Part shown: piece by piece, positions 921 to 31,641 of the stretch
Position numbering within the stretch: position 1 is the first letter of the stretch
How the letters are laid out: every line of letters begins with the position of its first letter
Source: Thiobacillus denitrificans ATCC 25259
GTDB lineage: Bacteria; Pseudomonadota; Gammaproteobacteria; Burkholderiales; Thiobacillaceae
Assembly: GCF_000012745.1 (NCBI RefSeq)
Contig: NC_007404.1
Coordinates: forward strand, 310,001 to 374,000
Reading direction: 5' to 3'
DNA: 64,000 bases
Translations under genes and position numbers: made by a program
Notes under the pieces: model-generated
Database searches by the model: none
Told to the model about the DNA's origin: nothing
What the model saw: only the letters and a program-made list of their open reading frames with translations

Positions 921-2840
921 ATGTGCGGCATCACCGGGATTTTCGACACCAGCGGCGTCAACGCGATTTCACGCGACCTGCTGCAGCGCATGAACGAGAC
1001 CCAGCACCACCGCGGTCCCGACGAAGGCGGCCTGCATCTCGAACCTGGACTCGGGCTCGGGCATCGGCGCCTGTCGATCATCGACCTGTCGAGCGGTCAG
1101 CAGCCCTTGGCGAACGAGGACGGCAGCGTCGTCGTCGTGTTCAACGGCGAGATCTACAACTTCCAGGAACTCGTCCCAGAGCTCGAGGCGCTCGGCCATG
1201 TCTTCCGCACCCATTCCGACACCGAAGTCATCGTCCACGCGTGGGAGGCCTGGGGCGAGGCATGCGTCGCGCGCTTTCGCGGCATGTTCGCGTTCGTGCT
1301 GTGGGATCGCAACCAGGAAACGCTCTTCGTGGTGCGCGACCGCTTCGGCGTCAAACCGCTCTATTACGCCTTCCTCGACACCGGCGAGTTCATTTTCGGT
1401 TCCGAGCTCAAGTCGCTGATGGTCCACCCGAGTCTCGGGCGCGAGGTCGACCCGCTCGCGGTCGAGGACTACTTCGCCTACGGCTACGTGCCCGAGCCGC
1501 GCACCATCTTCAAGCGCGTGCACAAGCTGCCGCCCGGCTTCACGCTGACGCTGAAGCGCGGTGCGCCGCGCGCGCTGCCGAAGCAATACTGGGACATGCC
1601 CTTCGCGCCGGTCGCGGTGAAGGACGAAGCCGGCGCGATGGACGAGCTGGTCGAACGCATGAAGGAATCGATCCGCCTGCGCATGATCGCCGACGTGCCG
1701 CTCGGCGCCTTCCTCTCGGGCGGCGTCGACTCGAGCGCCGTCGTCGCGATGATGGCGACCCAGTCGTCGACGCCGGTCAACACCTGCTCGATCGGCTTCG
1801 ACGACCCGGCGTTCAACGAGATCGAGTACGCGCAGCAGGTCGCCGACCGCTACCACACCCGGCACCACGTCGAGACCGTCGCCGCCGACGACTTCAGCCT
1901 GGTTGGCAAGCTCGCCCAGGTCTACGACGAGCCCTACGCTGATTCGTCGGCGCTGCCGACCTATCGCGTCTGCGAACTCGCGCGCAAGCACGTCAAGGTC
2001 GCGCTGTCGGGCGACGGCGGCGACGAGCATTTCGCCGGCTACCGGCGTTACCGCTGGTTCCGCTACGAGGAACGCATGCGCTCCATCATCCCGCTCGGTC
2101 TGCGCCGCCCGCTGTTCGGAACGCTCGGCCTGCTCTACCCGAAGGCCGACTGGGCACCGAAGATGTTTCGCGCCAAGACGACTTTCGAGGCGCTCGCGCG
2201 CGACACTGTCGAAGGCTATTTCCATGGCGTCTCGCTGCTCTCGAACGCCCAGCGCGCCCAGCTTTTTTCGCCGGCGTTCCGGCGTGAGCTGCAGGGCTAC
2301 CAGGCGGTCGACGTGCTGCGACGCCACGCCGCGGTGGCGCCGACCGACGACCCGCTGTCGCTTGTGCAGTATCTCGACATGAAGACCTATCTCGTCGGCG
2401 ACATCCTGACCAAGGTCGACCGCGCGAGCATGGCGCATGCGCTCGAAGTGCGCGAGCCGCTGCTCGATCACGAGCTGATGGGCTGGGTCTCCGGTCTTCC
2501 GGTCGACCTCAAGCTGCGCGGCAGCGAAGGCAAGTACCTGCTCAAGAAGGCGATGGAGCCCTACCTGCCGCACGACGTGTTGTACCGGAAGAAAATGGGC
2601 TTCTCGGTACCGCTCGCGGCCTGGTTCCGCGGCCCGCTCGCGGCGACGATCCGCACGGTCGTGCTCGGCGAGCGGCTCGCCGGGACCGGCATGTTCAACT
2701 GCGAATTCCTCCGCGAGGTGGTCGAGGCGCACCAGTCCGGCCGCCGCGATTTTTCGGTGATCCTGTGGACCGTCCTGATGTTCGACGCCTTCCTCGGCCA
2801 GGTGCTGGGCCTCGACGACACGGCGCGCGAGGCGGCATGA
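921..2840 (+). CDS. Asparagine-synthase-family amidotransferase, exosortase A locus type
   Basis: Glutamine-dependent amidotransferase of the AsnB fold. These enzymes release ammonia from glutamine in the N-terminal Ntn domain and use it on an adenylated acceptor in the C-terminal domain. The start is fixed by MCGITGIF, where Cys2 is the Ntn nucleophile. The synthetase ATP site is SGGVDSS near residues 265-271, followed by SGDGGDE near 368. At 639 residues it has the length of the exosortase-A-associated amidotransferase 1 family (TIGR03108, from memory). In such loci the substrate is thought to be a sugar or uronic acid of the polysaccharide rather than free aspartate; that is inference. The stop overlaps the next start (ATGA), so translation is coupled to the following glycosyltransferase. 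Confidence 0.9.
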   Translation: MCGITGIFDTSGVNAISRDLLQRMNETQHHRGPDEGGLHLEPGLGLGHRRLSIIDLSSGQQPLANEDGSVVVVFNGEIYNFQELVPELEALGHVFRTHSDTEVIVHAWEAWGEACVARFRGMFAFVLWDRNQETLFVVRDRFGVKPLYYAFLDTGEFIFGSELKSLMVHPSLGREVDPLAVEDYFAYGYVPEPRTIFKRVHKLPPGFTLTLKRGAPRALPKQYWDMPFAPVAVKDEAGAMDELVERMKESIRLRMIADVPLGAFLSGGVDSSAVVAMMATQSSTPVNTCSIGFDDPAFNEIEYAQQVADRYHTRHHVETVAADDFSLVGKLAQVYDEPYADSSALPTYRVCELARKHVKVALSGDGGDEHFAGYRRYRWFRYEERMRSIIPLGLRRPLFGTLGLLYPKADWAPKMFRAKTTFEALARDTVEGYFHGVSLLSNAQRAQLFSPAFRRELQGYQAVDVLRRHAAVAPTDDPLSLVQYLDMKTYLVGDILTKVDRASMAHALEVREPLLDHELMGWVSGLPVDLKLRGSEGKYLLKKAMEPYLPHDVLYRKKMGFSVPLAAWFRGPLAATIRTVVLGERLAGTGMFNCEFLREVVEAHQSGRRDFSVILWTVLMFDAFLGQVLGLDDTAREAA

Positions 2841-4057
2841 AGATCCTGCACGTATTCGACCACACGCTGCCGCTGCATTCCGGCTACACCTTCCGCAGCG
2901 CGGCGATCCTGCGCAACCAGCAGAAGCTGGGCTGGCAGACCTTCCACCTCTCTGGCCCCAAGCAGGTCGATTGCAGCGTCGCCGAAGAGGACGCCGACGG
3001 CCTGCATTTCTACCGCACGCCCAGACCTGAAGGCGTGCTCGCGCGGCTGCCCGGCGGCGATCCCTTCGCCGTCATGGCCGCGATCGAGAAACGCCTGCTG
3101 CCGCTCGCGCGCGAGCTGCGTCCCGACGTCCTGCACGCCCACTCGCCCGTGCTCGACGCGATGCCGGCGCTTCGCGTCGGCCGCAAACTCGGCATTCCGG
3201 TGGTGTACGAAATCCGCGCGTTCTGGGAAGACGCCGCGGTCGACCACGGCAGCACGACCGAAGGCAGCCTGCGCTATCGCCTCACGCGCGCGCTCGAAAC
3301 GCGCGCCGTGAAGCAGGCCGACGCCGTCACGGTGATCTGCGAGGGGCTGCGCGCGGATCTGGTCGCGCGCGGCATCCCCGCCGGCAAGATCACGGTCATT
3401 CCGAACGCGGTCGACGTCGACAAGTTTGCGGTCGGCGGCCAGGCCGACCCCGAACTCAAGATGAAGCTCGGCCTCGGGGCCAGCCGCGTGCTCGGCTTCA
3501 TCGGCTCGTTCTATGCCTACGAAGGCCTCGACCTGCTGATCGGCGCCTTGCCGGCGATCACCGCGCGTGCGCCCGACGTGAAGGTGCTGCTCGTCGGCGG
3601 CGGCCCGCAGGACGCCGCGCTCAAGGCGCAGGTGATGGCCCTCGGCCTCAAGGATCGCGTCGTCTTCGCCGGCCGCGTCCCGCACGCCGAGGTCAACCGC
3701 TACTACGATCTCGTCGACGTGCTCGTCTACGCCCGACATCCGATGCGGCTGACCGAACTCGTCACGCCGCTGAAGCCGCTCGAGGCCATGGCGCAGGGCC
3801 GGCTCATGGTCGCGTCCGACGTCGGCGGCCACCGGGAACTGATCGACGACGGCAAGACCGGCGTGTTGTTCCGCGCCGGTGACGCCGACGACCTCGCGCG
3901 CAAGGCGGTCGCGCTGCTCGACAACGCATCCGACTGGGAACGCATCAAGGCGAACGGCCGGCGCTTCGTCGAGACCGAGCGCAACTGGGCGGCGAGCGTC
4001 GCCCGTTATCGCGGCGTCTACCAGCGTCTCGTGCAGACGGAGGCGGTGCTTGACTGA
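2837..4057 (+). CDS. Glycosyltransferase family 4, exosortase A locus type
   Basis: GT-B retaining glycosyltransferase of 406 residues. The start is the ATG inside the ATGA overlap with the amidotransferase stop, giving MKILHVFDHTLPLHSGYTF, which matches the N-terminus typical of the exosortase-A-associated GT family named after Daro_2409 (TIGR04063, from memory). A longer in-frame start 24 codons upstream would lie within the preceding gene and adds only low-complexity Arg/Pro residues. The donor domain shows GFIGSFYAYEGLDLLI near residue 217 and LKPLEAMAQGRLMVASD near 313. It probably builds the exopolysaccharide repeat unit on the cytoplasmic membrane face. Sugar specificity is unknown. 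Confidence 0.9.
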   Translation: MKILHVFDHTLPLHSGYTFRSAAILRNQQKLGWQTFHLSGPKQVDCSVAEEDADGLHFYRTPRPEGVLARLPGGDPFAVMAAIEKRLLPLARELRPDVLHAHSPVLDAMPALRVGRKLGIPVVYEIRAFWEDAAVDHGSTTEGSLRYRLTRALETRAVKQADAVTVICEGLRADLVARGIPAGKITVIPNAVDVDKFAVGGQADPELKMKLGLGASRVLGFIGSFYAYEGLDLLIGALPAITARAPDVKVLLVGGGPQDAALKAQVMALGLKDRVVFAGRVPHAEVNRYYDLVDVLVYARHPMRLTELVTPLKPLEAMAQGRLMVASDVGGHRELIDDGKTGVLFRAGDADDLARKAVALLDNASDWERIKANGRRFVETERNWAASVARYRGVYQRLVQTEAVLD

Positions 4058-5291: not shown

Positions 5292-6673
5292 GCGTGCCGG
5301 CCTGGTTCGCGCGCGGCGTCTTCCGCCTGCAGGAGGCGCTGGTGCGGCGCCCGACCTTCGCCACGCTGCGTGAACTCGAGCGCACGCAATGGCTCACGCC
5401 CGCGCAGATGCGCGACTACCAGACGGCCCGGCTCAATGCGCTGCTGCAGATCGCGCTCGCCCACAGCCCGTGGCACGCGGCGCGCATCGAGGCCGCCGGG
5501 CTCGGCGACAGCGTCAGGGCCGGCCAGATGCAGCTCGACGCGCTCGCGCGTCTGCCGACCATGGACAAGCGCGACGCCCGCGAGAACGTCGAGCAACTGG
5601 TCTGGCGCGGCGTGCCCGGCGGCGTTTTTCCCTATACGACCGGTGGCTCGAGCGGCGAGCCGCTGATTTTCCACTTCGGCCGTGCGCGCCAGGCCGCCGA
5701 CGCCGCGGGGCGCCTGCGCGCACGGCGCTGGTGGGGCGTCGAGCCGGGTGCGCGCGAGGTCTATCTATGGGGGGCGCCGGTGGAGCTGAAGAAGACCGAC
5801 CGCATCAAGACGCTGCGCGACCGGCTCGTGAACCAGTTGCTGCTGAACGCCTTCGAGATGTCGCCCGCGCGCATGGACGACTACCTGCGTGCGATCGCGG
5901 CGTGGAATCCGCAGGCGATCTATGGCTACGCGAGCAGCCTCGCCCTGCTCGCCGCGCATGCCGAAGCGCGCGGGCTGCGCCCCCGGCTGCCCGCGCTGCG
6001 CGTCGTCAGCAGTACCGGCGAGCCGTTGTTTCCGCACCAGCGCGAACTGATCGAACGCGTGTTCGGCGTCGCGGTCTCGGTCGAATACGGCGCGCGCGAC
6101 GCCGGCCTGATGGCGCTCGAGTCACCCGACGGCGTGCTGCTGCAGATGAGCGAGACCCATCTCATCGAGGTACTCGACGGCGCCGGCAATCCGGCCGAGG
6201 AGGGCGAGGCCGTCGTCACCTCCCTCGTCTCTGCGGCGCAGCCCTTCATCCGCTACCGTACCGGCGACGTCGTCCGGCACAGCGGCCGTGCCGATCCGGG
6301 CGGCCGCGGCCTGGCCGTGCTCGACGCCGTCGTCGGGCGGCAGACCGATTTCATCGTCGCCGCCGACGGCCGCATCATGCACGCGCTCGCGCTGATCTAC
6401 GTGCTGCGCGCGATCCCCGGGGTCGCGCAGTTCAAGCTGGTCCAGCACGCGGTCGACCGCATCGAGGTGGAGGTCGTGCCGGGACCGCAATGGGACGCCG
6501 GTGCGGCCGACGCGCTGATCCAGGGCCTGCGCGCCCGCCTCGGCGAGTCGCTCGCGGTCGACCTGAAACTGCAGGAGGCGATCGCGCCCGAGGCGTCGGG
6601 CAAGCACCGCTACGTGGTCAGCCACGTTCGGCTCGACGGCGCACTTGCGCAGGCGGGAGCCGCGCGGACATGA
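5288..6673 (+). CDS. CapK/PaaK-like adenylate-forming enzyme
   Basis: Protein of 461 residues in the phenylacetate-CoA ligase/CapK branch of the ANL superfamily, which activates carboxylates as adenylates. The glycine/serine-rich phosphate loop is YTTGGSSGEPL near residue 118, a VEYGARDAG segment near 265 corresponds to the A5 motif, and IRYRTGDV near 322 is the conserved A7-type motif. The start is the ATG in the ATGA overlap with the preceding glycosyltransferase. In capsule loci such proteins may activate or transfer an acyl or amino-acid decoration, but the substrate is not known. Phenylacetate catabolism is unlikely because no paa genes are nearby. The next gene, of unknown function, overlaps it by 4 bases and may be a partner. 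Confidence 0.82.
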   Translation: MSVPAWFARGVFRLQEALVRRPTFATLRELERTQWLTPAQMRDYQTARLNALLQIALAHSPWHAARIEAAGLGDSVRAGQMQLDALARLPTMDKRDARENVEQLVWRGVPGGVFPYTTGGSSGEPLIFHFGRARQAADAAGRLRARRWWGVEPGAREVYLWGAPVELKKTDRIKTLRDRLVNQLLLNAFEMSPARMDDYLRAIAAWNPQAIYGYASSLALLAAHAEARGLRPRLPALRVVSSTGEPLFPHQRELIERVFGVAVSVEYGARDAGLMALESPDGVLLQMSETHLIEVLDGAGNPAEEGEAVVTSLVSAAQPFIRYRTGDVVRHSGRADPGGRGLAVLDAVVGRQTDFIVAADGRIMHALALIYVLRAIPGVAQFKLVQHAVDRIEVEVVPGPQWDAGAADALIQGLRARLGESLAVDLKLQEAIAPEASGKHRYVVSHVRLDGALAQAGAART

Positions 6674-7767
6674 GACCGAGCGCACGCCTCGATGCGTCGA
6701 TGCGCCACAAGGCGCGGCGCGCGCGCGCGCTGCGCTGGATCCTGCAGGACCTCGCCGGGGTCGCGCGCCAGCCTGAGCAGGCGCATCGCACCCACCTGCG
6801 GGCGACGCTCGAATGGCTGTGCCGTGCGCAGGACGCGTCGGCGACGCCTGGCTTGGCCGCGGGCGGCTGGACCTTCGAAGCGGGCTGGCAGGCGCCGAGC
6901 GTCGACGCCACGGGGCGACTGATCGAAACCTTCCTGCCGGCGGCCGAATATCTGGCCTGGCCGGAACTCACCGAGCGCGCACGCCGCATGCGCGACGCCT
7001 TGCTCGAGACGCCCGAGCCCGCGTCGCTCGGGCGCCTCCACGGCCTGGTGGCCGCGCACGTGCAGCTTGGCGACGCCGAAAGTCTGGCGCGCGCCGTGCG
7101 CGACGCGCGGGGCCTGTACGTCGACACCGGCCGCACGCCGGCGTGGCACGCCGATGCGGCCCACGTGCTCGCGCGGCTCGCGGTACTCGCCGACGAAGCC
7201 GTTTTGCGCGAAGCAGCGCGCGCGCACCTGCAGGCTGCGTGCTGCGCGCAGACGCCGAGCGGCTGGTTCGTCGACGTCGCCGCGCCGACGCCAACCGCGG
7301 CGCTCGCCCGTGCGCTGCGAAGTCTGGCCGAAGCGAGCCGGCTGCTTGGGGATGCGGCCGCGCTCGAGGCGGCCCTGCGCGTCGCCCGCCCGCTCGGCGA
7401 CGCCCTGCGCGCCGACGGCTCGCTATGTGCCGCCTTCGATGACGGATGGACCCCCGGTGCGCGTCACGCCTGCGTGCCCGGCAGCGCGCAAGTGGCCGCC
7501 GCGTGGCTGCGGCTGGCGCAGCTGGGCGAGGGCACGGCCTGGCGCGATGCGGCCTGGCGCCTGCTCGCCTGGGTCAAACGCTGCCAGCGCACCGAAGGTG
7601 AGCGGCTCGCGCTGCGCGGCGCGCTGCCGAATGCGGCGCCGATCTGGCGCGGTCCGGCCGCATTCGGTTTCCACACGCTCGGCGCAAAATACTTCGCCGA
7701 CGCGCTGATGATGGATATGGTCGGAATCGCCATCCCGCCCGCTGTACAGAAAGCCGAATCTGCATGA
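6670..7767 (+). CDS. Unknown protein, predicted alpha/alpha-toroid-like helical repeats
   Basis: A 365-residue protein I cannot assign to a named family. The start is the ATG in the overlap with the CapK-like gene (MRPSARLDASMRHKARRAR). The sequence is almost entirely helical and rich in Ala, Arg and Leu, with recurring W-L-x-x-A-Q or L-x-R-x-A helical pairs and Gly/Trp-rich turns (AAGGWTFEAGW, PSGWFVDVA). That resembles the (alpha/alpha) barrel fold of polysaccharide lyases, six-hairpin glycosidases and terpene-cyclase-like proteins. There is no clear signal peptide, so it is probably cytoplasmic. It ends with an ATGA overlap into the O-ligase-like gene, so it belongs to the same operon and may process or modify the glycan. 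Function is unknown. Confidence 0.75.
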   Translation: MRPSARLDASMRHKARRARALRWILQDLAGVARQPEQAHRTHLRATLEWLCRAQDASATPGLAAGGWTFEAGWQAPSVDATGRLIETFLPAAEYLAWPELTERARRMRDALLETPEPASLGRLHGLVAAHVQLGDAESLARAVRDARGLYVDTGRTPAWHADAAHVLARLAVLADEAVLREAARAHLQAACCAQTPSGWFVDVAAPTPTAALARALRSLAEASRLLGDAAALEAALRVARPLGDALRADGSLCAAFDDGWTPGARHACVPGSAQVAAAWLRLAQLGEGTAWRDAAWRLLAWVKRCQRTEGERLALRGALPNAAPIWRGPAAFGFHTLGAKYFADALMMDMVGIAIPPAVQKAESA

Positions 7768-9068: not shown

Positions 9069-10889
9069 CTAGTGCGCGTTCGCCTGCAGCCAGCGCTCGA
9101 GCATCATCACGACCCAGATCATGACGCCGTAGTAGCTCGCGTGCGGGCCACGCTGCATCGCGAGCATGTGGTCGAGGTAGCCCGGCTGGACCCAGCCACG
9201 GCGCTTGAAGTCCGAGAGACTGTCGTGCACGAGTTCGGCGAGCGGCGCGTGTTGTGTGCTCCATACGCCGAACGGCAGGCCGAAGCCGTGCTTGCGCTTG
9301 TTGATGATCTCTTCCGGCAGCAGGTCGCGCAGGGCTTCCTTGAAGAACCAGCGCAGCGCTTGTCCGCGTACCTTCCAGTCGACCGGAAGATGGTTCGCGA
9401 GCGCGACCAGGCGGTCGTCGAGCAGCGGGTAGGCGACCTCGACCCCCGCCGCCTCGGTCATCGTGCCGACCTTGCGCAGGTCGTTGTCGGCGAGCGTGAA
9501 CTTGAGGTCGAGATGCATCATGCGGTTGATGTAGTGGTCCGACGCCGTGCGCGCGTAGACCTCGGTGAGCGCTGCATCCGCCGCCGAAGGATCGACCGCG
9601 GCGACGAAATCGGCGGCGAAGATCTGGTCGAGCGGCGTGCGGTGCAGGAAGTTGTAGCTTTCCATGCGCAGCGGCAGCCCCATGTTCGCCTGGCGGACGT
9701 AGCTCTTGAGCTTGGACAGCGGAAAGTGATCGGACACGCCCGGAAGCGTCGCCAGCGGCTCGATCAGGCCGTGGCGCAGCGGCGCCGGCACGCGGAAATA
9801 ATTTTCGAACAGCTTCTGCTTCGCGTAGCGCGCGTTGCCGCCGAATATCTCGTCGCCGCCGTCGCCGGCGAGCATGCGTCCGAAGCCCGCTTCGCGCGCG
9901 GCGCGGGCGCAGAAATAGGTCGGGACCGCGGAGTCGTTGCCGAAGGGCTCGTCGTATTCGCGCGCGATCAGCGGAATCGCGGTGACGATGTCGGCCGGCT
10001 TGAGGTAGTACTCGTGGCGCCGGCTGTCGTACCGCGCGGCGGCACAGCGGGCATACGCCATTTCGTCGAAGCCCTCGGCGTCGAAACCGATCGAGAAGGT
10101 ATCGACGGGCCCGCCGCGCGCCGCCGTCAGCGCGCCGACGACCGTCGAACTGTCGGTGCCGCCCGAGAGAAACGCTGCGGTCGCCGGCCCGTCGGCGTCG
10201 CGCACGGCCGCGTCGAGGACGCGACGGAAGGCGTCGCGCTGCACGTCGAAGCCCGCGTCGTGCGGCGTGTAATCGGCGTGCCAGTAGAAGCGCGTCGCGA
10301 GCCGTCCGTTCTCGAGCGTGACGATCTGTCCGGGCAGCAGCTTGTGCACGCCGCGGTAGAGGCTGCGCGGCGCGGGGATGTTGTGGAAGTACAGGTAGTC
10401 GTAGATCGCCTGCGGCTCGATGTTGCGGCCGACGGCAGGGTGGGCGGCGACGTGCTGGACGCTGCTGCCGAAAACGAGCTGGTCGCCGCGATGCGCGTAG
10501 CCCAGGCGTTCCGCACCCATGCGGTCGAGCACGAGGCAGGCCTTCTTCGCCTGCGGCTCGAGCACGGCGAAGGCGAAATTCCCCTGCATGCGCGCCGGCA
10601 GGCCGGCGCCGTGGCTGCGCCAGCCCTGCGCGACCGCGGCGGCCGGGCCGGTTTCGCGGGCGACGCGCGCGAGGTCCGCGTCGACGAAGCGCGGGCGTCC
10701 CATGAGCGCCACCGCGTGTCCATCCTCGACCGCGATGTCGGCCTTGCCGAAGCGCGACTGCGCCGCCAGTCCGAGTTCCGCGCTGTGGTATCGACGCAGG
10801 CCGGCCGCGTCGGCATCGCCGCCCGCGATCTGCCGGATCAGGTCCTGATGCGCGCCGTCGGCGCCTAGCCAGCCAAAAATGCCATCCAT
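9069..10889 (-). CDS. Asparagine-synthase-like protein lacking the Ntn cysteine
   Basis: A 606-residue AsnB-fold protein transcribed alone between two plus-strand blocks. The natural N-terminus is MDGIFGWLGADG: the alignment to MCGI...-type amidotransferases is clear, but residue 2 is Asp (codon GAT) where the family has the catalytic Cys. The glutaminase half should therefore be inactive, as in Cys-less AsnB relatives that use free ammonia or act on other substrates. The synthetase half is intact, with SGGTDSSTV near residues 240-248 and AGDGGDEIFGG near 343. A longer frame continues upstream of the ATG but looks non-coding. The substrate is probably a glycan precursor of the surrounding locus; this is inference. 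Confidence 0.87.
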   Translation of the reverse strand: MDGIFGWLGADGAHQDLIRQIAGGDADAAGLRRYHSAELGLAAQSRFGKADIAVEDGHAVALMGRPRFVDADLARVARETGPAAAVAQGWRSHGAGLPARMQGNFAFAVLEPQAKKACLVLDRMGAERLGYAHRGDQLVFGSSVQHVAAHPAVGRNIEPQAIYDYLYFHNIPAPRSLYRGVHKLLPGQIVTLENGRLATRFYWHADYTPHDAGFDVQRDAFRRVLDAAVRDADGPATAAFLSGGTDSSTVVGALTAARGGPVDTFSIGFDAEGFDEMAYARCAAARYDSRRHEYYLKPADIVTAIPLIAREYDEPFGNDSAVPTYFCARAAREAGFGRMLAGDGGDEIFGGNARYAKQKLFENYFRVPAPLRHGLIEPLATLPGVSDHFPLSKLKSYVRQANMGLPLRMESYNFLHRTPLDQIFAADFVAAVDPSAADAALTEVYARTASDHYINRMMHLDLKFTLADNDLRKVGTMTEAAGVEVAYPLLDDRLVALANHLPVDWKVRGQALRWFFKEALRDLLPEEIINKRKHGFGLPFGVWSTQHAPLAELVHDSLSDFKRRGWVQPGYLDHMLAMQRGPHASYYGVMIWVVMMLERWLQANAH

Positions 10890-11012
10890 CGTGTGTGCGG
10901 TCGAAGCGATACGGGATAATGGGCGCCAATATAAACGAGCCCGGCAGGTTGGCACGAATCCTGTCGGACCCGTCCGCCTGGACGGGGCATCGGCGACATA
11001 AACGGGAGGCGC
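10890..11012. promoter_or_regulatory. Divergent intergenic region between amidotransferase and sulfotransferase
   Basis: A 123-base gap between divergently read genes must hold promoters for both. A short AT-richer stretch (GGGATAAT near 10914-10921 and AATATAAAC near 10928-10936) could supply -10 elements. A TTGGCACG sequence near 10950 recalls a sigma-54 -24 box, but the -12 TTGC is absent. No operator is recognised. Confidence 0.35.
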
Positions 11013-11936
11013 ATGCGTTCGCGCGATTTTTTCGAGAAGGTGGGGAAGACGCTGGCATTCCATGCGCGCCGCGCGCAGCGTCGGGCGCGTGGACTGCGCT
11101 GGGATCTTGCGCCGCGCGCCGCGGTTCGCCCGATCATCGTGATCGGCTGTTCGCGCGCGGGCACCACGCTCGTCTACAAGACGCTGTCCGAATCGCACGA
11201 GATCGGCAGCCTGCAGCGCGAGACTCACGATTACTGGGCGAGCCTGCATCCTCCGGCCGCCAAGAACTGGGACACCCATGCCCTCGACGCGGGCGACGCC
11301 AGCGCCGCCGAGCGCGCGACAGTCAGCCGCTACTTCCACACCTGGACCGGACGCGACCGCTGGGTCGACAAGAACAACCAGAACGGCCTCTGCGTGCCCT
11401 ATCTGCACGCGCTTTTCCCCGACGCGGTGTTCGTCTTCGTCAAGCGTAGCCCGGGCGACAACCTCAATTCGCTGATTGAGGGATGGCGCAAGCCCGACGA
11501 ATTCGCGACCTGGTCGCGCGAGCTGCCGGCGGAAGTGGCGGTGGAAAACGGCGAACTGCGCGAGTGGTGCTTCTTTCTCGCCGACGGCTGGCGCGACTAC
11601 CTGAACGCCGCGGTCGAAGACGTCGCGGCCTTCCAGTACGCGGCGATCAACGGCGCGATCCTCGACGCGCGCGCCGCGATCCCGGCAGCGCAATGGGTCG
11701 AGGTGTTCTACGAGGATTTTCTGCGCGACCCGCGGGCGACCTTCCGCGGCATCTTCGAGGCCTGTAGCCTGGCTTTCGATGCGCGCCTCGAGGCGCATTG
11801 CGCCGCGGTGCTCGACATTCCCTACAACGCGTTCTCCGAAATCCGCCTCGACAAATGGAAGGACGGGCGCAACCGCGAGCGGATCGAGCGCGTGCTGCCG
11901 CAGCTGGCGCCGCTGGCGGCGCGGCTCGGCTACTGA
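11013..11936 (+). CDS. Sulfotransferase family protein (PAPS-dependent)
   Basis: A 307-residue protein with the sulfotransferase 5'-phosphosulfate loop IGCSRAGTTLVYKTL near residues 44-58 and a second nucleotide-binding segment VFVKRSPGDNLNSLIEGWR near 140, the 3'-phosphate site with its conserved Arg/Ser. The C-terminal YEDF...DPRATF segment is typical of the family. The likely role is transfer of sulfate from PAPS to a sugar hydroxyl of the exopolysaccharide or its lipid-linked precursor. It is the first gene of the second plus-strand operon, and the next gene overlaps its stop (TGATG). A second sulfotransferase is encoded at 21018-21983. Confidence 0.85.
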   Translation: MRSRDFFEKVGKTLAFHARRAQRRARGLRWDLAPRAAVRPIIVIGCSRAGTTLVYKTLSESHEIGSLQRETHDYWASLHPPAAKNWDTHALDAGDASAAERATVSRYFHTWTGRDRWVDKNNQNGLCVPYLHALFPDAVFVFVKRSPGDNLNSLIEGWRKPDEFATWSRELPAEVAVENGELREWCFFLADGWRDYLNAAVEDVAAFQYAAINGAILDARAAIPAAQWVEVFYEDFLRDPRATFRGIFEACSLAFDARLEAHCAAVLDIPYNAFSEIRLDKWKDGRNRERIERVLPQLAPLAARLGY

Positions 11937-17922: not shown

Positions 17923-20900
17923 TCAGCCGCCGCTGTCGAGGAAGCTTTGCAGCCGTGCCCAGAGTTCGGCCTTGACGTCGGGATGCGCGTCCGACACGTC
18001 GTGCTGGCAGGCCGGGTCGCTCTCGACGTCAAAAAGCCGCAGCAGGCAGCCGTTTTCGAGCGGCTGATAGACGAGCTTCCAGCGCCCGCGCCTCAGCATC
18101 CTGTCCTTGGCCTGCAGCGTGATCGGCGCGTACTGGGTCTTGATCGCGAGCGTTCCGCTTTCGCGGTTGGGAACGCCCATGAGTTCGAGCACGTCGGGGT
18201 AGCGCAAATGCTGCTCGGGCAGGCCCGGCACGTCGGCGAGCCAGATGCCGGTTTCGTTGAAGGCGTCGAGATCGGGGCAGGGGCCCGCCGGCGCCAGACA
18301 GCCGACGAGTGACGCGCCGTCCATGCTCGCCGGCGCCGGCAGGCCGGCGAGTTCGAGCAGGGTCGGGGCGAGATCGATCGAGCGCACGACCTGGGCGACC
18401 GTGCCGCGCCCGGGCCGCCTCGGGTCGTGAATCACGAGCGGGATGCGCGGGCTGAAGTCGCCGACCGCGGAGTTGCCCTGGCCCCAGGTGTCGTGTTCGA
18501 AGAATTCCATGCCGTGGTCCGAATAGACGGCGACGATGGTGTCGTCGGCGAGTCCGCAGGCCTCGAGGTGGGCGAGCATCTTGCCGATCTCGGTGTCGAA
18601 GGCGGCGACGCAGCCGTCGTAGAGATCGATGATCTGGTCGAGGTCGAATTCCTCCTTGGGCGCGCCCTGCCGGCGGATGATCTCGAACGGATCGGTCAGC
18701 CGCGCCATCGCGAATTTCGACTCGCCGGCGTAGCCCGGGTCGGCGAAGCGGGTATACCACGGCCATTCGGATGCGAAAGGCGGATGCGTGGTCGAATAGA
18801 AGACGTTGAGCAGGAAGGGCGCGTCGCTTTCGGCTAGACGCGAGACGAGCCGCCGCGCCCGGCTTCCCAGCGGCCCGGTGAGCGGGACGCCGCCGAGATA
18901 ATAGAGTTCGGGCAGGAGCAGCCGGCCGAGCCGGTTGTGGGTGAACAGCGAAACGAAGAGCCGCAGGTCCTTGGGGCCCTGTCGGATCAGATATTTCAGG
19001 TTCCACTGGTCTTCGGGCAAATCGGTGTAGTCGAAGCCGAAGGAAAACTTGCCCATGTCGGCCCCGCACCAGTCCGAGATCGCCGCGCTGCGGTAGCCGG
19101 CCTGCTTGAGCAGCACAGGCAGTGCGTCGACCTTCAGACGCGTGCTCTCGTCGTCGACGAAATTGTCGCGGATGCCGTGGGTGTGCGGCCAGGTCCCGGT
19201 CAGCATCGAGATCAGGCTCGGTGCGGTGCGGGCGCAGGGCACATAGCAGTTGGCGAAGAGCGCGCTCGTTGAGGCCAGGCGGTCGAGGTTCGGCGTCAGC
19301 GCGCGACGATAGCCGAGCGCGCCGAGCCGGTCGGCGCGTAGAGTGTCCGAGCCGATCATCAGGATGTTGGGCGGCCGGCCCGGCCCGCGAGGCGGCCGCC
19401 TGCGCGACGGCCCGGCCGGCGGCTCCCAGGCCGCCCAGGCGATCGTTCCCAGATAGAGCAGCATGCTTCCCCACAGGGCCACGAGGTCGTCGAGGCGCAT
19501 CGCGCGCGCGAGTTGCACCGACGCGACCGCCAGCAGGAGCACGAGCGCGCCGCCGCCGATATATTCGGCGGCGCGGATGCGTTGTGGCGTCGCCACCCGC
19601 CACAGGCCATAGAGCCGGCTCACGCGGTAATGCATCGACGCCACGAGGAGGCCAGGATTGAACCGCAGCTTGCGCACGAACTGCAGCGCGAAGCCGGCGA
19701 GCAGGCCGAGCAGGGCGGCGACGGTCGCGAGCGCGCTCGACCAGGTCGTGCTCAGCGCGCTCGCGAGCATGAAGTACACGAGCACGCCGCCGCCGGCGGT
19801 GAACAGCATCACGGCGAAGGCCCAGGCCGACAGCCGGGCGAGCGCGAACAGCGTGTAGCGCCGGTAGTGGGTGAGGATTTCCTCGCGGATGCGCGGACCG
19901 GTCTGCGAGAAGTCGAGCAGCGACTTGGCGAGGAGCGCGGCCGTCCCCGCACCGGCGACGGCGATCGCCGGGACGAGGCCGGCCCAGCGTGCGTCGCCCG
20001 CGGCCAACCACGCGACCAGCCCCGCCGCGACGGCGACGAGGCCGAGCGCTTCGACCTGCAAGCCGCCGCGGTCCTGCGGCAAGGCGAGGCGCTTGCGCCG
20101 ATGGCCCGATTCCCGGTGTCCGCGGATTTCGCCGAGTGCGGCGGCCGTCCGCACCCAGTAGAAGCGACGCTGCGCCCAGGTCCGGCTGAACACGCCGTGA
20201 AAGGCGTATTCGCCGAGCTTGCGCCACATGTAAAGCGGAACCGAGCCGCCGCCCTGGATGCGCGCGCTCGAGCGCGTGCGCTGATAGCTTTTCTTGAGCA
20301 GGTAGCGCAGGCGCAGCCGCTCGGTGTCGACGTAGTGGTATTGCACGATCGCCGGCGCGTACTGGCAGCGCGCGCCGCGCGCGAGGACGCGCAGCACGTA
20401 TTCGCTGTCCTCGCCGCCGCCGAGATCGTGCCCGCGCGGCCCGAGCTCGGTCGAGAACGCGCCGCCGAGGTCGAACACGGCTCGACGCAGCGTCAGGTTG
20501 CCGCCGCCCGGTATCGGTCCGCGCTCGGCGGTGATCGCCGCGGGTTCATCACCTTGGTCGTAACGCGGCACCGGCAGCGGATAGATCCGGTACGGTCCCT
20601 CGTCGTGCACCCACGCGGGCTCGCTGCCGTCCCAGTCGGGCAGGATGCGGCCGCAATACAGCCCGGCTTCGGGCCAGCGCCGCGACGCCTGTTCGATCGC
20701 CACCAGAAAGGCCTCGTCGACGCGATGGTCGTCGTCGACGAAGGTCGTGAGCTCGGTTTCGATCAGCGGAAGCGCCGTGTTCAAGGCGTGGGATTTGCCG
20801 GGGGTGGCGACTTCGACGACGTCGAGCGGCAGCAGATTCTCCCGGGCCTGCACGGCCTGGTAGCGCTGCATGCGCGCGACCGTGTCGTCGCTGCAGGCGT

Positions 20901-21021
20901 TCGCCGCCACGAGGATGCGCACCGGCATCTCGGGCCGTTGCGCACGGTTCAGCGAGGCGAGCGTGCGCTCGAGCAGATCGGCGCGGTTGTGCGTGCAGAT
21001 CAGAACCGTGAGCGCGCTCAC
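17923..21021 (-). CDS. GT2 glycosyltransferase fused to membrane region and sulfatase-superfamily domain
   Basis: A 1032-residue three-part protein. The start is GTG at 21021, which overlaps the upstream stop as GTGA; a TTG nine codons earlier lies inside that gene. Part 1 (about 1-300) is a GT2 domain (LICTHNRADLLERTL, VDDDHRVDEAF, GGGEDSEYV). Part 2 (about 320-530) has several hydrophobic helices. Part 3 (about 548-1030) is an alkaline-phosphatase/sulfatase domain with metal motifs IGSDTLRAD near 552 and YSDHGMEFF near 833. In the position of the formylglycine Cys/Ser it has Thr (RTAPSLISMLTG), as in phospho-group transferases and Thr-type sulfatase relatives. It may couple sugar addition to transfer or removal of a phospho- or sulfo-group. 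This architecture is unusual. Confidence 0.85.
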   Translation of the reverse strand: MSALTVLICTHNRADLLERTLASLNRAQRPEMPVRILVAANACSDDTVARMQRYQAVQARENLLPLDVVEVATPGKSHALNTALPLIETELTTFVDDDHRVDEAFLVAIEQASRRWPEAGLYCGRILPDWDGSEPAWVHDEGPYRIYPLPVPRYDQGDEPAAITAERGPIPGGGNLTLRRAVFDLGGAFSTELGPRGHDLGGGEDSEYVLRVLARGARCQYAPAIVQYHYVDTERLRLRYLLKKSYQRTRSSARIQGGGSVPLYMWRKLGEYAFHGVFSRTWAQRRFYWVRTAAALGEIRGHRESGHRRKRLALPQDRGGLQVEALGLVAVAAGLVAWLAAGDARWAGLVPAIAVAGAGTAALLAKSLLDFSQTGPRIREEILTHYRRYTLFALARLSAWAFAVMLFTAGGGVLVYFMLASALSTTWSSALATVAALLGLLAGFALQFVRKLRFNPGLLVASMHYRVSRLYGLWRVATPQRIRAAEYIGGGALVLLLAVASVQLARAMRLDDLVALWGSMLLYLGTIAWAAWEPPAGPSRRRPPRGPGRPPNILMIGSDTLRADRLGALGYRRALTPNLDRLASTSALFANCYVPCARTAPSLISMLTGTWPHTHGIRDNFVDDESTRLKVDALPVLLKQAGYRSAAISDWCGADMGKFSFGFDYTDLPEDQWNLKYLIRQGPKDLRLFVSLFTHNRLGRLLLPELYYLGGVPLTGPLGSRARRLVSRLAESDAPFLLNVFYSTTHPPFASEWPWYTRFADPGYAGESKFAMARLTDPFEIIRRQGAPKEEFDLDQIIDLYDGCVAAFDTEIGKMLAHLEACGLADDTIVAVYSDHGMEFFEHDTWGQGNSAVGDFSPRIPLVIHDPRRPGRGTVAQVVRSIDLAPTLLELAGLPAPASMDGASLVGCLAPAGPCPDLDAFNETGIWLADVPGLPEQHLRYPDVLELMGVPNRESGTLAIKTQYAPITLQAKDRMLRRGRWKLVYQPLENGCLLRLFDVESDPACQHDVSDAHPDVKAELWARLQSFLDSGG

Positions 21022-21983
21022 GCTGCTTTGGGTTTCCGGTGCTGCCAATAGCGTGCGAGCGTTTGGTTGTGCAGACGGTACGCGGCCTTCTCGACGAGCC
21101 GCGGCGGCCGTGCCGGCGTCAAAAGCTCATAGCCGAGTTCGCGTAGCGTATTCCCGGCGACGCTCTCGAACGCGCGGATCTGCGCGCGAGTCATTTCGAC
21201 GCGCCATTTTCCGGCGTTGTCCGCGCGCAGCGGCTTGTGCACGAGCGGCGTCTTGCCGGGATCGTCGACGGGCTCCACTTCGAACATCTCCGGCGAATAG
21301 TCCTCCCCGAGGAAGGCGCACAGGGTCCGCATGGTTTCCTCGGGCTGCGCGAGCAGGTCTTCGTAGCGCAGTTCGAGATATTGGTCCGGCGGCAAGCCGC
21401 GGGCCTGGATGCGGCCTTTCTCGATGTAGCTTTCCCAGTATTCGGCGGCGAAATAAGCGTTGTAGACGCCGAAGTCATGACGTCGTCCGAACAGCGACAG
21501 CGCGACGTCGCGGCCGTCGCGTATCAGGTGCACGAAGCGCGCGTTCGGAAACCATTCGAGCAGTTTCTGCATGTGCATGACGTAGTAGGGCGTCTTGTCG
21601 CCCCAGCGCGCCTTGCCCTCGCCGCGCGCATTCTTCTCGAAGAGGCCGCCGACGATCGCCGGCATCGTGTGCCGGCCCTGTGCGTGAAGCTCCTCGGCGA
21701 GGCTCGCGGCGTCGAAGCGCATGCCGTGCAGGTCCGTCTCGAGAAAATCGCGGCTCTGCGCGTGCATCGCGTCGAGCACGGCGCGTATGTTTTCGATGCG
21801 GGACAGGTCGCCGAACTGCGCCCGGTTGCGGTAAAGCGGAATGAAAAAATGCGATTCGCCAGTCGGCAGCGAGATGCGTGGCAGGTTGCGCAGCCGGTAT
21901 TGCAGCATCGTCGTGCCCGAGCGCGGCGCGCCGACGATGAAGACGGGGCCGTCGTTGTCCGACGTTAGGGGCGTGGTATTCAT
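21018..21983 (-). CDS. Sulfotransferase family protein (PAPS-dependent)
   Basis: A 321-residue sulfotransferase. The start is the ATG in the ATGA overlap with the upstream GT2 gene, giving MNTTPLTSDNDGPVFIVG. The 5'-phosphosulfate loop VGAPRSGTTMLQYRL is at residues 17-31 and the 3'-phosphate site LIRDGRDVALSLFGRR is near 153. YLELRYEDLLAQPEETM near 200 is the family's conserved downstream block. It probably sulfates a sugar of the exopolysaccharide or its precursor using PAPS. It is translationally coupled on both sides (ATGA upstream, GTGA downstream) to a GT2 gene and the GT2-sulfatase fusion, which places sulfation enzymes and a sulfatase-like domain in one operon. Confidence 0.88.
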   Translation of the reverse strand: MNTTPLTSDNDGPVFIVGAPRSGTTMLQYRLRNLPRISLPTGESHFFIPLYRNRAQFGDLSRIENIRAVLDAMHAQSRDFLETDLHGMRFDAASLAEELHAQGRHTMPAIVGGLFEKNARGEGKARWGDKTPYYVMHMQKLLEWFPNARFVHLIRDGRDVALSLFGRRHDFGVYNAYFAAEYWESYIEKGRIQARGLPPDQYLELRYEDLLAQPEETMRTLCAFLGEDYSPEMFEVEPVDDPGKTPLVHKPLRADNAGKWRVEMTRAQIRAFESVAGNTLRELGYELLTPARPPRLVEKAAYRLHNQTLARYWQHRKPKAA

Positions 21984-22909
21984 GAGGGCTCGGTGCGGCG
22001 CTGGTAGCCGACGATCAGGCCGAAGGCGTGCGACGCGTTCATCGCCTGCCGGACCGGGTTGGGGGCGCCCGGCAACAGGTGCCAGAGCGTTTTGAGGCAA
22101 TGGCTGACGAACTGGCCGAGCAGAAAAGGCGGCACGCCAAGCACGGTGCGCGGAAAATCCGGCAGGCGGAACTGGCCGTGGCGCAGGCCCGCGCGGTAAT
22201 GCAGCTTCACGAAATAACGGCGCTTGAGCTTCCACGGGTCGACCGCGTGCCATACCGCCATGTCCGGGCGGTAGCGGATTTTTGCGCTGAGGGCGAGCAG
22301 CGCGCGCAGCATCATCGCGTCTTCGCCGCCGCCGACGTCGGTGCCTTCGCGGTTGTAGCGCGGGTCGAAGTTGAGCTCGGGGTGGGCGCGAAAGAACGCC
22401 ATCGCGTATGCGATGTTGCCGCTCCACAGCGGCGTCGCGCTGTCGGTGACCCAGAAGTCGGCCGGGCCATGGTCGAGGCGGCCGAGAAACCCCGCGACCT
22501 CGTCGTCGAGCCAGGGCGGACGCCGGTGGGGACTGAAGTCGATGTCGATGCGCCCGCCGACGCAGTGCGCGCCTTCGTCGACGATCGCCGCGCACGCCGC
22601 GGCGAGAAAGCCGGGCTGGGGCAGTTCGTCGTCGTCGATGAAAACCAGGATGTCGCGCTCGCGTGTTTCGGCAAGCGCGCGGTTGCGCGCCGGGACGATG
22701 CCGGGCGCGGTTTCGGTGACGACGTGGAGCGGGGCACCCGGGGCCGCACGCAGGCGCTCTAGGACGGCGAGCGTGTCGTCGGGGCTGTTGTTGTTGACGG
22801 CGAGGATTTCGAAAGGCAGCGGGCAGGTCTGCGAACGCAGCGCCGCGACCAGTTTTTCGAGGCGCTCGGGTCGGCGGTAGGTGCAGAAGGCGACGGTGAC
22901 GGCGAACAT
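21980..22909 (-). CDS. Glycosyltransferase family 2
   Basis: GT-A glycosyltransferase of 309 residues. I chose ATG at 22909 (MFAVTVAFCTYRRPERLEKL) because the 32 codons upstream form a strong hairpin sequence rather than a domain. Features are AVNNNSPDDTLAVLE near residue 34, the DxD-like FIDDDELPQPGFL near 88 and a GGGEDAMMLRALL segment near 198 (catalytic ED). The C-terminal portion has a hydrophobic LGVPPFLLGQFVSH stretch, which may contact the membrane. It overlaps the downstream sulfotransferase by ATGA. Confidence 0.85.
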   Translation of the reverse strand: MFAVTVAFCTYRRPERLEKLVAALRSQTCPLPFEILAVNNNSPDDTLAVLERLRAAPGAPLHVVTETAPGIVPARNRALAETRERDILVFIDDDELPQPGFLAAACAAIVDEGAHCVGGRIDIDFSPHRRPPWLDDEVAGFLGRLDHGPADFWVTDSATPLWSGNIAYAMAFFRAHPELNFDPRYNREGTDVGGGEDAMMLRALLALSAKIRYRPDMAVWHAVDPWKLKRRYFVKLHYRAGLRHGQFRLPDFPRTVLGVPPFLLGQFVSHCLKTLWHLLPGAPNPVRQAMNASHAFGLIVGYQRRTEPS

Positions 22910-22938
22910 GTTCAGGCCTGCGGCAGGGCGACGCCCGG

Positions 22939-29420: not shown

Positions 29421-30500
29421 ATGCAAACCCTTACCGTCGATCTCGGCGACCGTTCCTATCCGATCCACATCGGCGCCGCCCTCTTGACCCGCGCCGACCT
29501 GGTCCTGCCGCACCTCGCGCAGAAACGCGTGATGGTCGTGACCAACACGACCGTCGGCCCCTTGTACCTCGCGCAGTTGAAGGCCGCGCTCGAGGCGGCG
29601 GGCGTGCGCGTGGCCGAGGTCGTCCTTCCTGACGGCGAGGCCTATAAGAACTGGGAAACGCTGAACCTGGTGTTCGACGCGCTGCTGCGTGAGCGTGCCG
29701 AGCGCAAGACGACGCTGATCGCGCTCGGCGGCGGCGTGATCGGCGACATGACCGGGTTCGCCGCGGCGTGCTACCAGCGCGGCGTGCCTTTCATCCAGAT
29801 TCCGACGACGCTGCTGTCACAGGTCGATTCCTCGGTCGGCGGCAAGACCGGGATCAACCATCCGCTCGGCAAGAACATGATCGGCGCCTTCTACCAGCCC
29901 AAACTCGTGCTCGCCGATGCCGCCACCCTGGGCACGCTGCCCGCGCGCGAACTCTCGGCCGGCCTGGCCGAAGTGATCAAGTACGGGCTGATCTGGGACG
30001 TCGAATTCCTCGCCTGGCTCGAGGCCAACATGGACCGGCTGCGTGCGCTCGACGCCGAGGCGATTTCGCATGCGATCTACCGCTCCTGCGAGATCAAGGC
30101 CCAGGTCGTCGCCGAGGACGAGCGCGAAGGCGGCCTGCGCGCGATCCTCAACCTCGGCCACACCTTCGGTCACGCGATCGAGACCGGCATGGGCTACGGC
30201 GCCTGGCTGCACGGTGAAGCGGTGGCCGCCGGCATGGTGCTCGCCGCCGAAACCTCGCAACGTCTGGGCTGGCTCGGCGAAGCCGACGTCGCGCGGACCC
30301 GCGCGCTGATCCGCGCCGCGGGGCTGCCGGACGTCGCGCCCAATCTCGGTGTCGACGCCTATCTCGAGTACATGGGCCACGACAAGAAAGTCGAGGGCGG
30401 AAAAATGCGCTTCGTGCTGCTGAAAAAACTCGGCGAGGCCGTGATCACCGACGCCGTCCCCGCCGACGTGCTCACCGCCGTGCTGACCCCGCCGCACTGA
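29421..30500 (+). CDS. aroB: 3-dehydroquinate synthase
   Basis: Second enzyme of the shikimate pathway: converts DAHP to 3-dehydroquinate using NAD and a divalent metal in the cytoplasm. The 359-residue length is normal for the bacterial monofunctional enzyme. The NAD-binding [17 protein letters not shown] lies near residue 98, substrate-site [14 protein letters not shown] near 133, and the metal-binding His residues in [13 protein letters not shown] near 243 and LHGEAVAAG near 263. ATG 29421 ([18 protein letters not shown]) matches the family N-terminus; the longer frame above it is spurious. aroK, often adjacent, is not here. dgt follows 10 bases later and is probably co-transcribed. Confidence 0.97.
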
Positions 30501-30510
30501 GGAGAACCCA

Positions 30511-31641
30511 ATGGAGCCGTCCTTCGCCCCCTATGCCGCGCATTCCAGCCAGACCCGGGGACGCGTGCACCGCGAGGCACCGGCGGCCCCGCGCTCGGAG
30601 TTCCAGCGCGATCGAGACCGCATCATCCACTCGACCGCGTTCCGCAGGCTCGAGTACAAGACCCAGGTTTTCGTCAATCACGAAGGCGACCTCTTCCGCA
30701 CGCGTCTGACGCACAGCATCGAGGTCGCGCAGATCGGCCGCACGATCGCGCGCCTGTTGAACCTGAACGAGGACCTCGTCGAGGCCGTCGCGCTCGCCCA
30801 CGACCTCGGGCACACGCCCTTCGGCCACGCCGGCCAGGATGCGCTCAATGCCTGCATGCGCGAGCACGGCGGCTTCGAGCACAACCTCCAGTCGCTGCGC
30901 GTGGTCGATCTGCTCGAGGAGCGCTACGCGGAATTCGACGGGCTCAATCTCACCTTCGAGGCGCGTGAAGGCATCCTCAAGCACTGTGCCCTGTCCAACG
31001 CGGAGAAGCTCGGCGAGGTCGGGCGGCGCTTCATCGACAAGAAGCAGCCGTCGCTCGAGGCGCAGGTCGCCAACCTCGCGGACGAAATCGCCTACAACAA
31101 CCACGACGTCGACGACGGCCTGCGCTCGGGCCTGATCACGCTCGAGCAGTTGAGCGAGGTCACGATCTTCGGCCGCCACCTCGCCGAAGTGCGCAGGAAG
31201 CATCCGACGCTTCAGGGACGTCGCGTCGTGACCGAGACGGTGCGGCGCATCATCAACGCGCTGATCCTCGACCTCGTCGACACGACGCGCACCAACGTCG
31301 TGAACAGCGGCGTCGAAACGCTCGACGACGTGCGCAACGCGCCGCCGCTTGCCGCGTTCAGTCCCGCGATTCTCGAGCAGCACCGCGAACTCAAGCGCTT
31401 CCTGCTGCATCACCTCTATCGTCATTACAAGGTGGCGCGCATGAGCACCAAGGCGGGGCGCATCATCAGCGACCTCTATGCCGCATTCACCGGCGACGCA
31501 CGGCTGCTGCCGCCCGAGCACCAGGCCAGGGAATCCCTCGAAGGAACGCGCGCGGTCGCCGACTACATCGCGGGCATGACCGACCGCTACGCGATGCGCG
31601 AACATCGCCGGATCTACGCGGTCGAGGAGATTTACGACTAA
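30511..31641 (+). CDS. dgt: Deoxyguanosinetriphosphate triphosphohydrolase-like protein (HD domain)
   Basis: A 376-residue HD-superfamily nucleotidase that splits dNTPs into deoxynucleoside and triphosphate, lowering the dNTP pool. The metal-binding motif is present as [12 protein letters not shown] near residue 68 (H) and [16 protein letters not shown] near 95 (HD). The N-terminal [20 protein letters not shown] block is conserved in the family. It is shorter than E. coli Dgt and fits the type 2 subfamily common next to aroB in betaproteobacteria. An AGGAGA site precedes the ATG. It converges on comF, with a probable terminator between them. Confidence 0.93.

Follow-up and report, generated by a model that had tools for sequence, protein, structure and literature searches.

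In the genome of Thiobacillus denitrificans ATCC 25259, a stretch of 64,000 nucleotides (NC_007404.1, positions 310,001 to 374,000; hereafter the window, whose own numbering is used throughout) carries a gene on the minus strand (17923..21021) encoding a protein of 1032 amino acids. In this protein a family 2 glycosyltransferase (GT2) head, a six-helix membrane domain and a Thr-type domain of the alkaline phosphatase (AP) superfamily, with the Sulfatase fold, are joined in a single chain. Our calculations show that the membrane and AP parts make up a constant chassis on which three types of glycosyltransferase (GT) head have changed repeatedly. This constant chassis with exchanged heads, together with a predicted cytoplasmic position, is what is new here. 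We read the fusion as a co-facial two-enzyme protein of the inner membrane, belonging to an exopolysaccharide (EPS) pathway linked to the exosortase XrtA, in which the GT2 head would add a sugar, the AP head would transfer a phospho-group, and the heads are exchanged between lineages. We place the probability of this reading at roughly 0.45.

The gene is a single open frame of 1032 codons plus a stop, begins with GTG, contains no internal stops and is present in one copy in the 2,909,809-base, one-contig genome. Two GT2 models of Pfam match the N-terminal part over their cut-offs, PF13641 at residues 4-249 and PF00535 at residues 5-140, and the Sulfatase model PF00884 matches residues 551-893 with 142 bits against a cut-off of 25. 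The GT2 head, of the type that we call A, spans residues ~1-301 (20119..21021, minus strand), carries the motifs VDDDHRVD and GGGED and is predicted to be cytoplasmic. It is followed by the membrane domain at residues ~318-531 (19429..20070, minus strand), which has no Pfam family, and by the AP-superfamily domain at residues ~551-1032 (17926..19371, minus strand), with the metal-ligand positions D559, D835 and H836, the nucleophile T599, and H746 and H843. An AlphaFold2 model of the fusion built from 45 sequences (predicted local distance difference test, pLDDT, 86.7; predicted template modelling score, pTM, 0.77) places six long helices between the GT2 and Sulfatase domains, at residues 318-341, 344-369, 387-422, 429-454, 479-506 and 510-531. 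The intact frame, the Pfam domains and the modelled helices confirm the original prediction that GT2, membrane and sulfatase-superfamily domains are fused in one 1032-residue chain.

No clear internal start divides the domains: neither ATG nor GTG occurs between residues 295 and 351, a region that holds three TTG codons. A possible start (V or M) stands at or beside the residue aligned with the GTG start in many relatives, and others lack one exactly there. Profile searches returned no Pfam or NCBIfam model that describes the fusion architecture. The membrane part alone, searched against Pfam at E 5, gave no match in the window protein, and two relatives gave sub-threshold matches only.

The architecture is conserved. 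In 22 of 60 related genomes, our own included and one belonging to another family, the full chain aligns near end to end (starting at query residue 1-4 and reaching 1027 or beyond) in one frame, with no frameshift and no stop. These full-length genomes, together with a second genome collection, rule out a chance fusion or an assembly error. A scan of this public collection gave 80 loci, of which 75 could be classified by head (L and G numbers are our labels for loci and genomes): 66 are fused, and nine consist of the membrane and AP part without a GT. The five left unclassed (L090, L109, L110, L112 and L119) have their 5' side cut by a contig end. Counted among the 66 fused loci are L087, with a broken head frame, and L076, L111 and L113, which are cut at the other end; L047 and L087 are one locus and were left as they are. 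Loci L023-L050 and L051-L130 come from sets with many genomes in common, and the counts of the two sets are not summed. In the Thiobacillus metagenome-assembled genome (MAG) represented by L047 and L087, a type-B head has its frame broken, by a sequencing error or a real loss.

Fused forms were found in records named Thiobacillus, Candidatus Nitrotoga, Sulfuricella, Aromatoleum and Thauera, among others, with Thauera aminoaromatica S2 (L115) as one carrier. Unfused forms belong to Marichromatium, a Chromatiaceae bacterium, Candidatus Tenderia, a Thiobacillus MAG (L128) and other MAGs of Gammaproteobacteria or Pseudomonadota. In a phylum-wide sample of 398 genomes the membrane domain occurred in our own genome only, and the family therefore looks limited to part of one class. 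Among 434 plasmid records no single place covered 80% of the query, and the 12 matches listed concern the AP part only (26-29%). One plasmid gene, annotated as a 'sulfatase-like hydrolase/transferase' on lbp1 of Leptospira borgpetersenii (L152, 3059-5512), has an AP part that is 29% identical, with ~310 residues before the match.

Head types divide the fused loci into 50 with type A, 11 with type B and five with type C. The head of the window protein is 41-45% identical to type-B heads and gives no match to type-C heads at E 1e-5. At residue 98, in the acidic motif of GT2, Asp is found in 36 of the 39 rows with a letter there and Gly in three, which equals the number of type-C rows. To follow the chassis apart from its heads, a tree was computed from the membrane and AP part with the head columns excluded, taking in 67 of the 80 loci and three of the five type-C rows. 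On this tree the labels A, B, C and none need at least 12 changes; the starred branches force 10 changes for A, six for B and three for C, and the three C rows stand mutually apart. Long branches were flagged by the tree program (L093, L097, L116 and others). Individual joins of the tree could be distorted by recombination within the chassis; the overall pattern of head exchange hardly could.

The GT and the chassis also belong together where they are not fused. A separate GT gene lies upstream in all nine unfused loci of the scan, its product being 49-58% identical to head A, and at L116 the ATG of the AP gene follows the GT stop codon by six bases. In a sample of the class comprising 369 genomes, 21 have the membrane domain, 16 have a GT-A/B gene (E 1e-40) and 15 have both (Fisher p 4.7e-21). 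The setting of the gene is shared as well. XrtA lies ~19 kb from the fusion, just outside the window (~1 kb beyond its left end), and is listed for T. denitrificans in the available portion of PMC1569441. A match to the XrtA model TIGR03109 over its cut-off was found in 73 of the 369 genomes, namely in 20 of the 21 chassis genomes and 53 of the 348 others (p 1.4e-14). The placement of the gene in an exosortase locus, part of the original prediction, is thus upheld by XrtA beside the window, by an XrtA-type O-ligase in the locus and by these genomes.

Several genomes depart from this association and count against it. At E 1e-40, no GT-A/B match was obtained in six of the 21 chassis genomes; G308 carries a standalone type-A GT (C1:1901615-1902535) with no chassis match in the same genome; and G111 is a chassis genome without XrtA. 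Two of the six carry a GT resembling head C. In G369 (L132) the fused head is 71% identical to head C. In G396 (L143) an unfused chassis with an extra first helix is preceded by a separate GT that shares 66% identity with head C, the GT stop codon standing 83 bases ahead of the first chassis ATG (314-1381 and 1408-3612 of that locus). The state of L143 may be a split fusion or one that precedes fusion. The remaining genomes of the six are G120, G129, G140 and G318. Taken with the nine upstream type-A GTs, the separate head-C-like GT of L143 means that heads A and C exist both as separate neighbours and fused.

A GT2 enzyme that uses activated sugars has to be cytoplasmic. With six helices following such a head, the AP domain is therefore expected inside too. 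Six hydrophobic peaks are present in all 64 distinct fused proteins and in seven further fused ones. The first helix is absent from 20 of 21 distinct unfused proteins (15 and 5 from two sets), in which the core begins at helix 2, and the standalone GT-A genes checked for helices, eight of nine (L123 was not among them), all end without a membrane helix. Since every examined fusion has the added helix, the core orientation would be kept and the GT would stay inside, whereas a core of opposite orientation could take a GT at its N-terminus directly. Exact copies were removed before the peak and charge-bias counts, and repeats were removed by hand in the later set, which gave no assignment for L131 and L145. 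For L124 (fused) and L148 (unfused) the status of the first helix follows a finer hydrophobicity analysis that replaced a cruder cut; in the unfused L126, L127 and L137 an extra peak lies in the second inner loop and is not a first helix. As helices come in pairs, the side would be unchanged if one pair failed to span the membrane.

Charge and conservation point the same way. In 75 of 80 distinct proteins, lysine and arginine are denser in the loops predicted to be inner. Two inner loops have 16 of 71 columns with at least 90% conservation, against 0 of 25 in the two outer loops quoted; gaps in the unfused rows keep the columns of the GT head, the first transmembrane helix and the first outer loop below that level. 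The conserved loops of the membrane domain, KSLLDFSQTGPRIREE and NPGLLVASMHYRVSRLYGLW, are on the predicted inner face. Some unfused proteins fit this topology less well. L143 has a first helix although it is unfused, its basic N-terminus fitting the same orientation; in L042 the N-terminus is basic and the first helix missing, with no clear fit to the orientation; and the five exceptions to the charge rule are all unfused and distant. From the helix count, the charge bias and the extra first helix, we conclude that the GT and AP domains are probably both on the cytoplasmic side.

The original prediction had the protein adding a sugar on one side of the membrane and editing a charged group on the other, which would put the GT in the cytoplasm and a periplasmic AP domain to work on the glycan after flipping, where it would add the phospho-group. 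In LtaS, EptA and CptA a membrane part precedes an AP-fold domain whose nucleophile is Thr, and in LtaS and EptA the catalytic AP domain works outside the cytoplasm, on the outer face of the inner membrane. The Thr nucleophile and membrane anchoring of the fusion recall these enzymes, from which it differs in its predicted cytoplasmic AP domain, its six predicted helices, its GT head and its weak sequence match (E 6e-5 for the LtaS model and 1e-3 for the CptA model, both below cut-off). For the AP domain to be periplasmic, the number of helices that follow a cytoplasmic GT would have to be odd. The even number predicted throughout the fused proteins, the contrary charge bias and the six helices of the full-chain AlphaFold2 model all oppose this arrangement, and we consider it improbable.

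Five residues of the AP domain, D559, T599, H746, D835 and H836, are the same in all 45 aligned relatives, and the domain is the most conserved part of the protein (mean 0.78). The Thr at the nucleophile position of the motif RTAPSL...LTG, first remarked upon in the window protein, is accordingly shared by every aligned relative. The invariant metal positions and Thr599 suggest that the domain is probably an active enzyme. If it were catalytically dead and kept as a scaffold, the replacement of several sulfatase substrate-binding residues (L603, D650, C652 and Q848) would be understandable; the invariance of the catalytic positions and the high conservation of the domain make such a role very unlikely. 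Cysteines 592, 596, 804 and 1005 are conserved in 44 or 45 of the 45 sequences, and two of these lie shortly ahead of the nucleophile motif.

The sulfatase resemblance extends to the fold and to the metal-ligand positions. Four signature patterns of S1 formylglycine sulfatases, given in the available part of PMC5066984, each match 0 of 45 sequences, including the catalytic pattern, two Ca-binding patterns and GY..GK.WH. At the catalytic pattern (Cys/Ser followed by P-x-R) the nucleophile is Thr in all 45, and the place of Arg is taken by Leu in 44 and Met in one. The sulfatase metal motifs originally proposed are retained at the D559, D835 and H836 positions and absent as S1 Ca-binding patterns. 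Compared with the S1 formylglycine sulfatases of SulfAtlas, the domain is thus alike in fold and in PF00884 and different in the signature patterns.

The best Foldseek match of the AP domain is phosphonate monoester hydrolase (PMH) 4uph (E 6.9e-20), and a PDB profile search gave S1 sulfatases and PMHs among the 60 of 127 matches listed; EptA or LtaS may stand among the other 67, or among the Foldseek matches beyond those listed. With the PMH/S1_0 group (PDB 4uph, 2vqr, 2w8s) it shares the metal ligands Asp, Asp and His. The EfAS ligands D20, D311 and H312, as reported in the available part of PMC12421950, align with D559, D835 and H836, and the Asp-His pair D835-H836 is as in PMH and EfAS. Q21, R65, K110, H112 and K324 of EfAS are, in the same part of PMC12421950, among the residues whose mutants showed dramatically reduced or no activity; read from alignments, their places here are T560, L603, D650, C652 and Q848. 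In contrast to PMH, the fusion has Thr599 in place of the formylglycine Cys and L603, D650, C652 and Q848 at the anion-binding Arg/Lys/His places, is membrane-bound and carries a GT. Judging from these residues, the AP domain is probably neither a formylglycine sulfatase nor a PMH. NCBIfam-type models for arylsulfatase, choline-sulfatase and PehA match at E 1.5e-34 to 3e-27, none at its cut-off and all far better than LtaS and CptA, which does not support the kinship to phosphoglycerol or phosphoethanolamine transferases that had been supposed.

Thr-based phospho-chemistry occurs in other branches of the AP superfamily. By analogy it would be the natural reading for this domain, a phospho-group being the most likely one handled. 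Transfer is favoured over hydrolysis because the protein is encoded in a biosynthetic locus and tied to a GT. A co-facial protein whose AP head is instead a cytoplasmic phosphodiesterase or phosphatase, trimming or proofreading a lipid- or nucleotide-linked intermediate beside the GT, would agree with the nearest solved relatives (4uph and S1 sulfatases), which among the matches listed are hydrolases, a point that tells against transfer. The constant tie to a GT and the anabolic EPS locus fit modification of the glycan at least as well, and we see the hydrolase as possible, if doubtful.

The start of the fusion overlaps a sulfotransferase gene (PF13469; 21018..21974, minus strand), the GTG of the former and the TGA of the latter sharing the sequence GTGA. 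Translational coupling, as originally proposed, is therefore plausible in this genome, but the link is not general. Of 67 loci, 18 have a relative of the sulfotransferase within 2.5 kb upstream (A 13/44, B 5/9, C 0/5, unfused 0/9), and in 12 it directly adjoins the gene; the count covers relatives of this one protein above 100 bits and excludes 13 of the 80 loci, which have too little upstream sequence. As an optional neighbour, the sulfotransferase cannot explain the AP domain in general. If the domain were a true sulfatase, removing the sulfate placed by this neighbour, the Pfam match and the adjoining genes here would be accounted for. Such undoing of the neighbour's sulfation was rejected, since Cys or Ser for formylglycine and the four S1 patterns are found in none of the 45 sequences and 49 of the 67 AP-keeping loci have no such sulfotransferase within 2.5 kb, and we give it almost no credence.

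Other genes of the locus are a separate GT2 (21980..22915, minus strand), 34% identical to the fused head, the XrtA-associated O-ligase/Wzy_C protein (TIGR03097; 7764..9050, plus strand), which marks this as an exosortase locus, and a Wzx-type flippase (PF13440; 24788..26254, minus strand). The flippase suggests that the repeat unit is lipid-linked and put together in the cytoplasm. Three further frames were observed. The one at 9069-11798 (minus strand) has 909 residues, with an asparagine-synthase-type amidotransferase at its C-terminal side and ~385 N-terminal residues without a Pfam match; its two parts sit in different frames in several relatives, and its start or fusion is ambiguous. A long frame at 30472-31605 (minus strand) has neither a Pfam nor an NCBIfam match, and another at 5389-7767 (plus strand), without a Pfam match or an NCBIfam match at E 1e-20, may be spurious.

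In the co-facial transferase model that we prefer, both catalytic heads would lie on the cytoplasmic face of the inner membrane, as predicted. The GT2 head would add one sugar onto a lipid-linked repeat unit, while the helical domain would hold the protein at the inner leaflet, its conserved cytoplasmic loops perhaps binding the lipid substrate. Thr599 of the AP head would then attack a phosphodiester donor and pass the phospho-group to the same lipid-linked glycan, by transfer rather than hydrolysis, and both additions would precede flipping. The chassis would stay, and the GT head would be swapped between lineages as the glycan changes. A bolder proposal, which we advance tentatively and think rather unlikely as it stands, is that the family represents a new class of membrane phosphotransferase, with a cytoplasmic-face AP domain on a helical chassis, modification of the glycan before flipping, and interchangeable GT heads whose exchange would rewrite the glycan while the phospho-modification stays.

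Genes labelled 'sulfatase (wbbL)' have been described in EPS clusters of Thauera MZ1T (mz1t_3253) and Rubrivivax gelatinosus (RGS1_10427). In the available parts of PMC4784049 and PMC3684757 these clusters contain deacetylase, GT2 and asparagine synthase genes, and floc or biofilm formation is tied to them via other cluster genes; the two genes are given there by name, with no discussion of a fusion, no insertion is marked for RGS1_10427, and the table of mutated genes does not contain mz1t_3253. Judged by name and gene neighbours, both genes are likely members of the fusion family. The EPS of MZ1T has been reported, in the portion of the literature available, with possible esterified non-sugar substituents. 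Among the literature matches listed, with most subscription papers outside the search, there was no published GT-sulfatase fusion; those listed also held no published structure of a Thauera polysaccharide.

If the co-facial reading is true, an AP-fold transferase inside the cell, coupled to a GT of its own pathway, would mean an additional step in the assembly of the repeat unit, one that is currently hidden by annotation as 'sulfatase'. The exchange of heads on the chassis offers a natural experiment in how modular enzymes evolve. On the partial literature at hand, likely relatives are found in EPS clusters of floc-forming or biofilm-forming bacteria.

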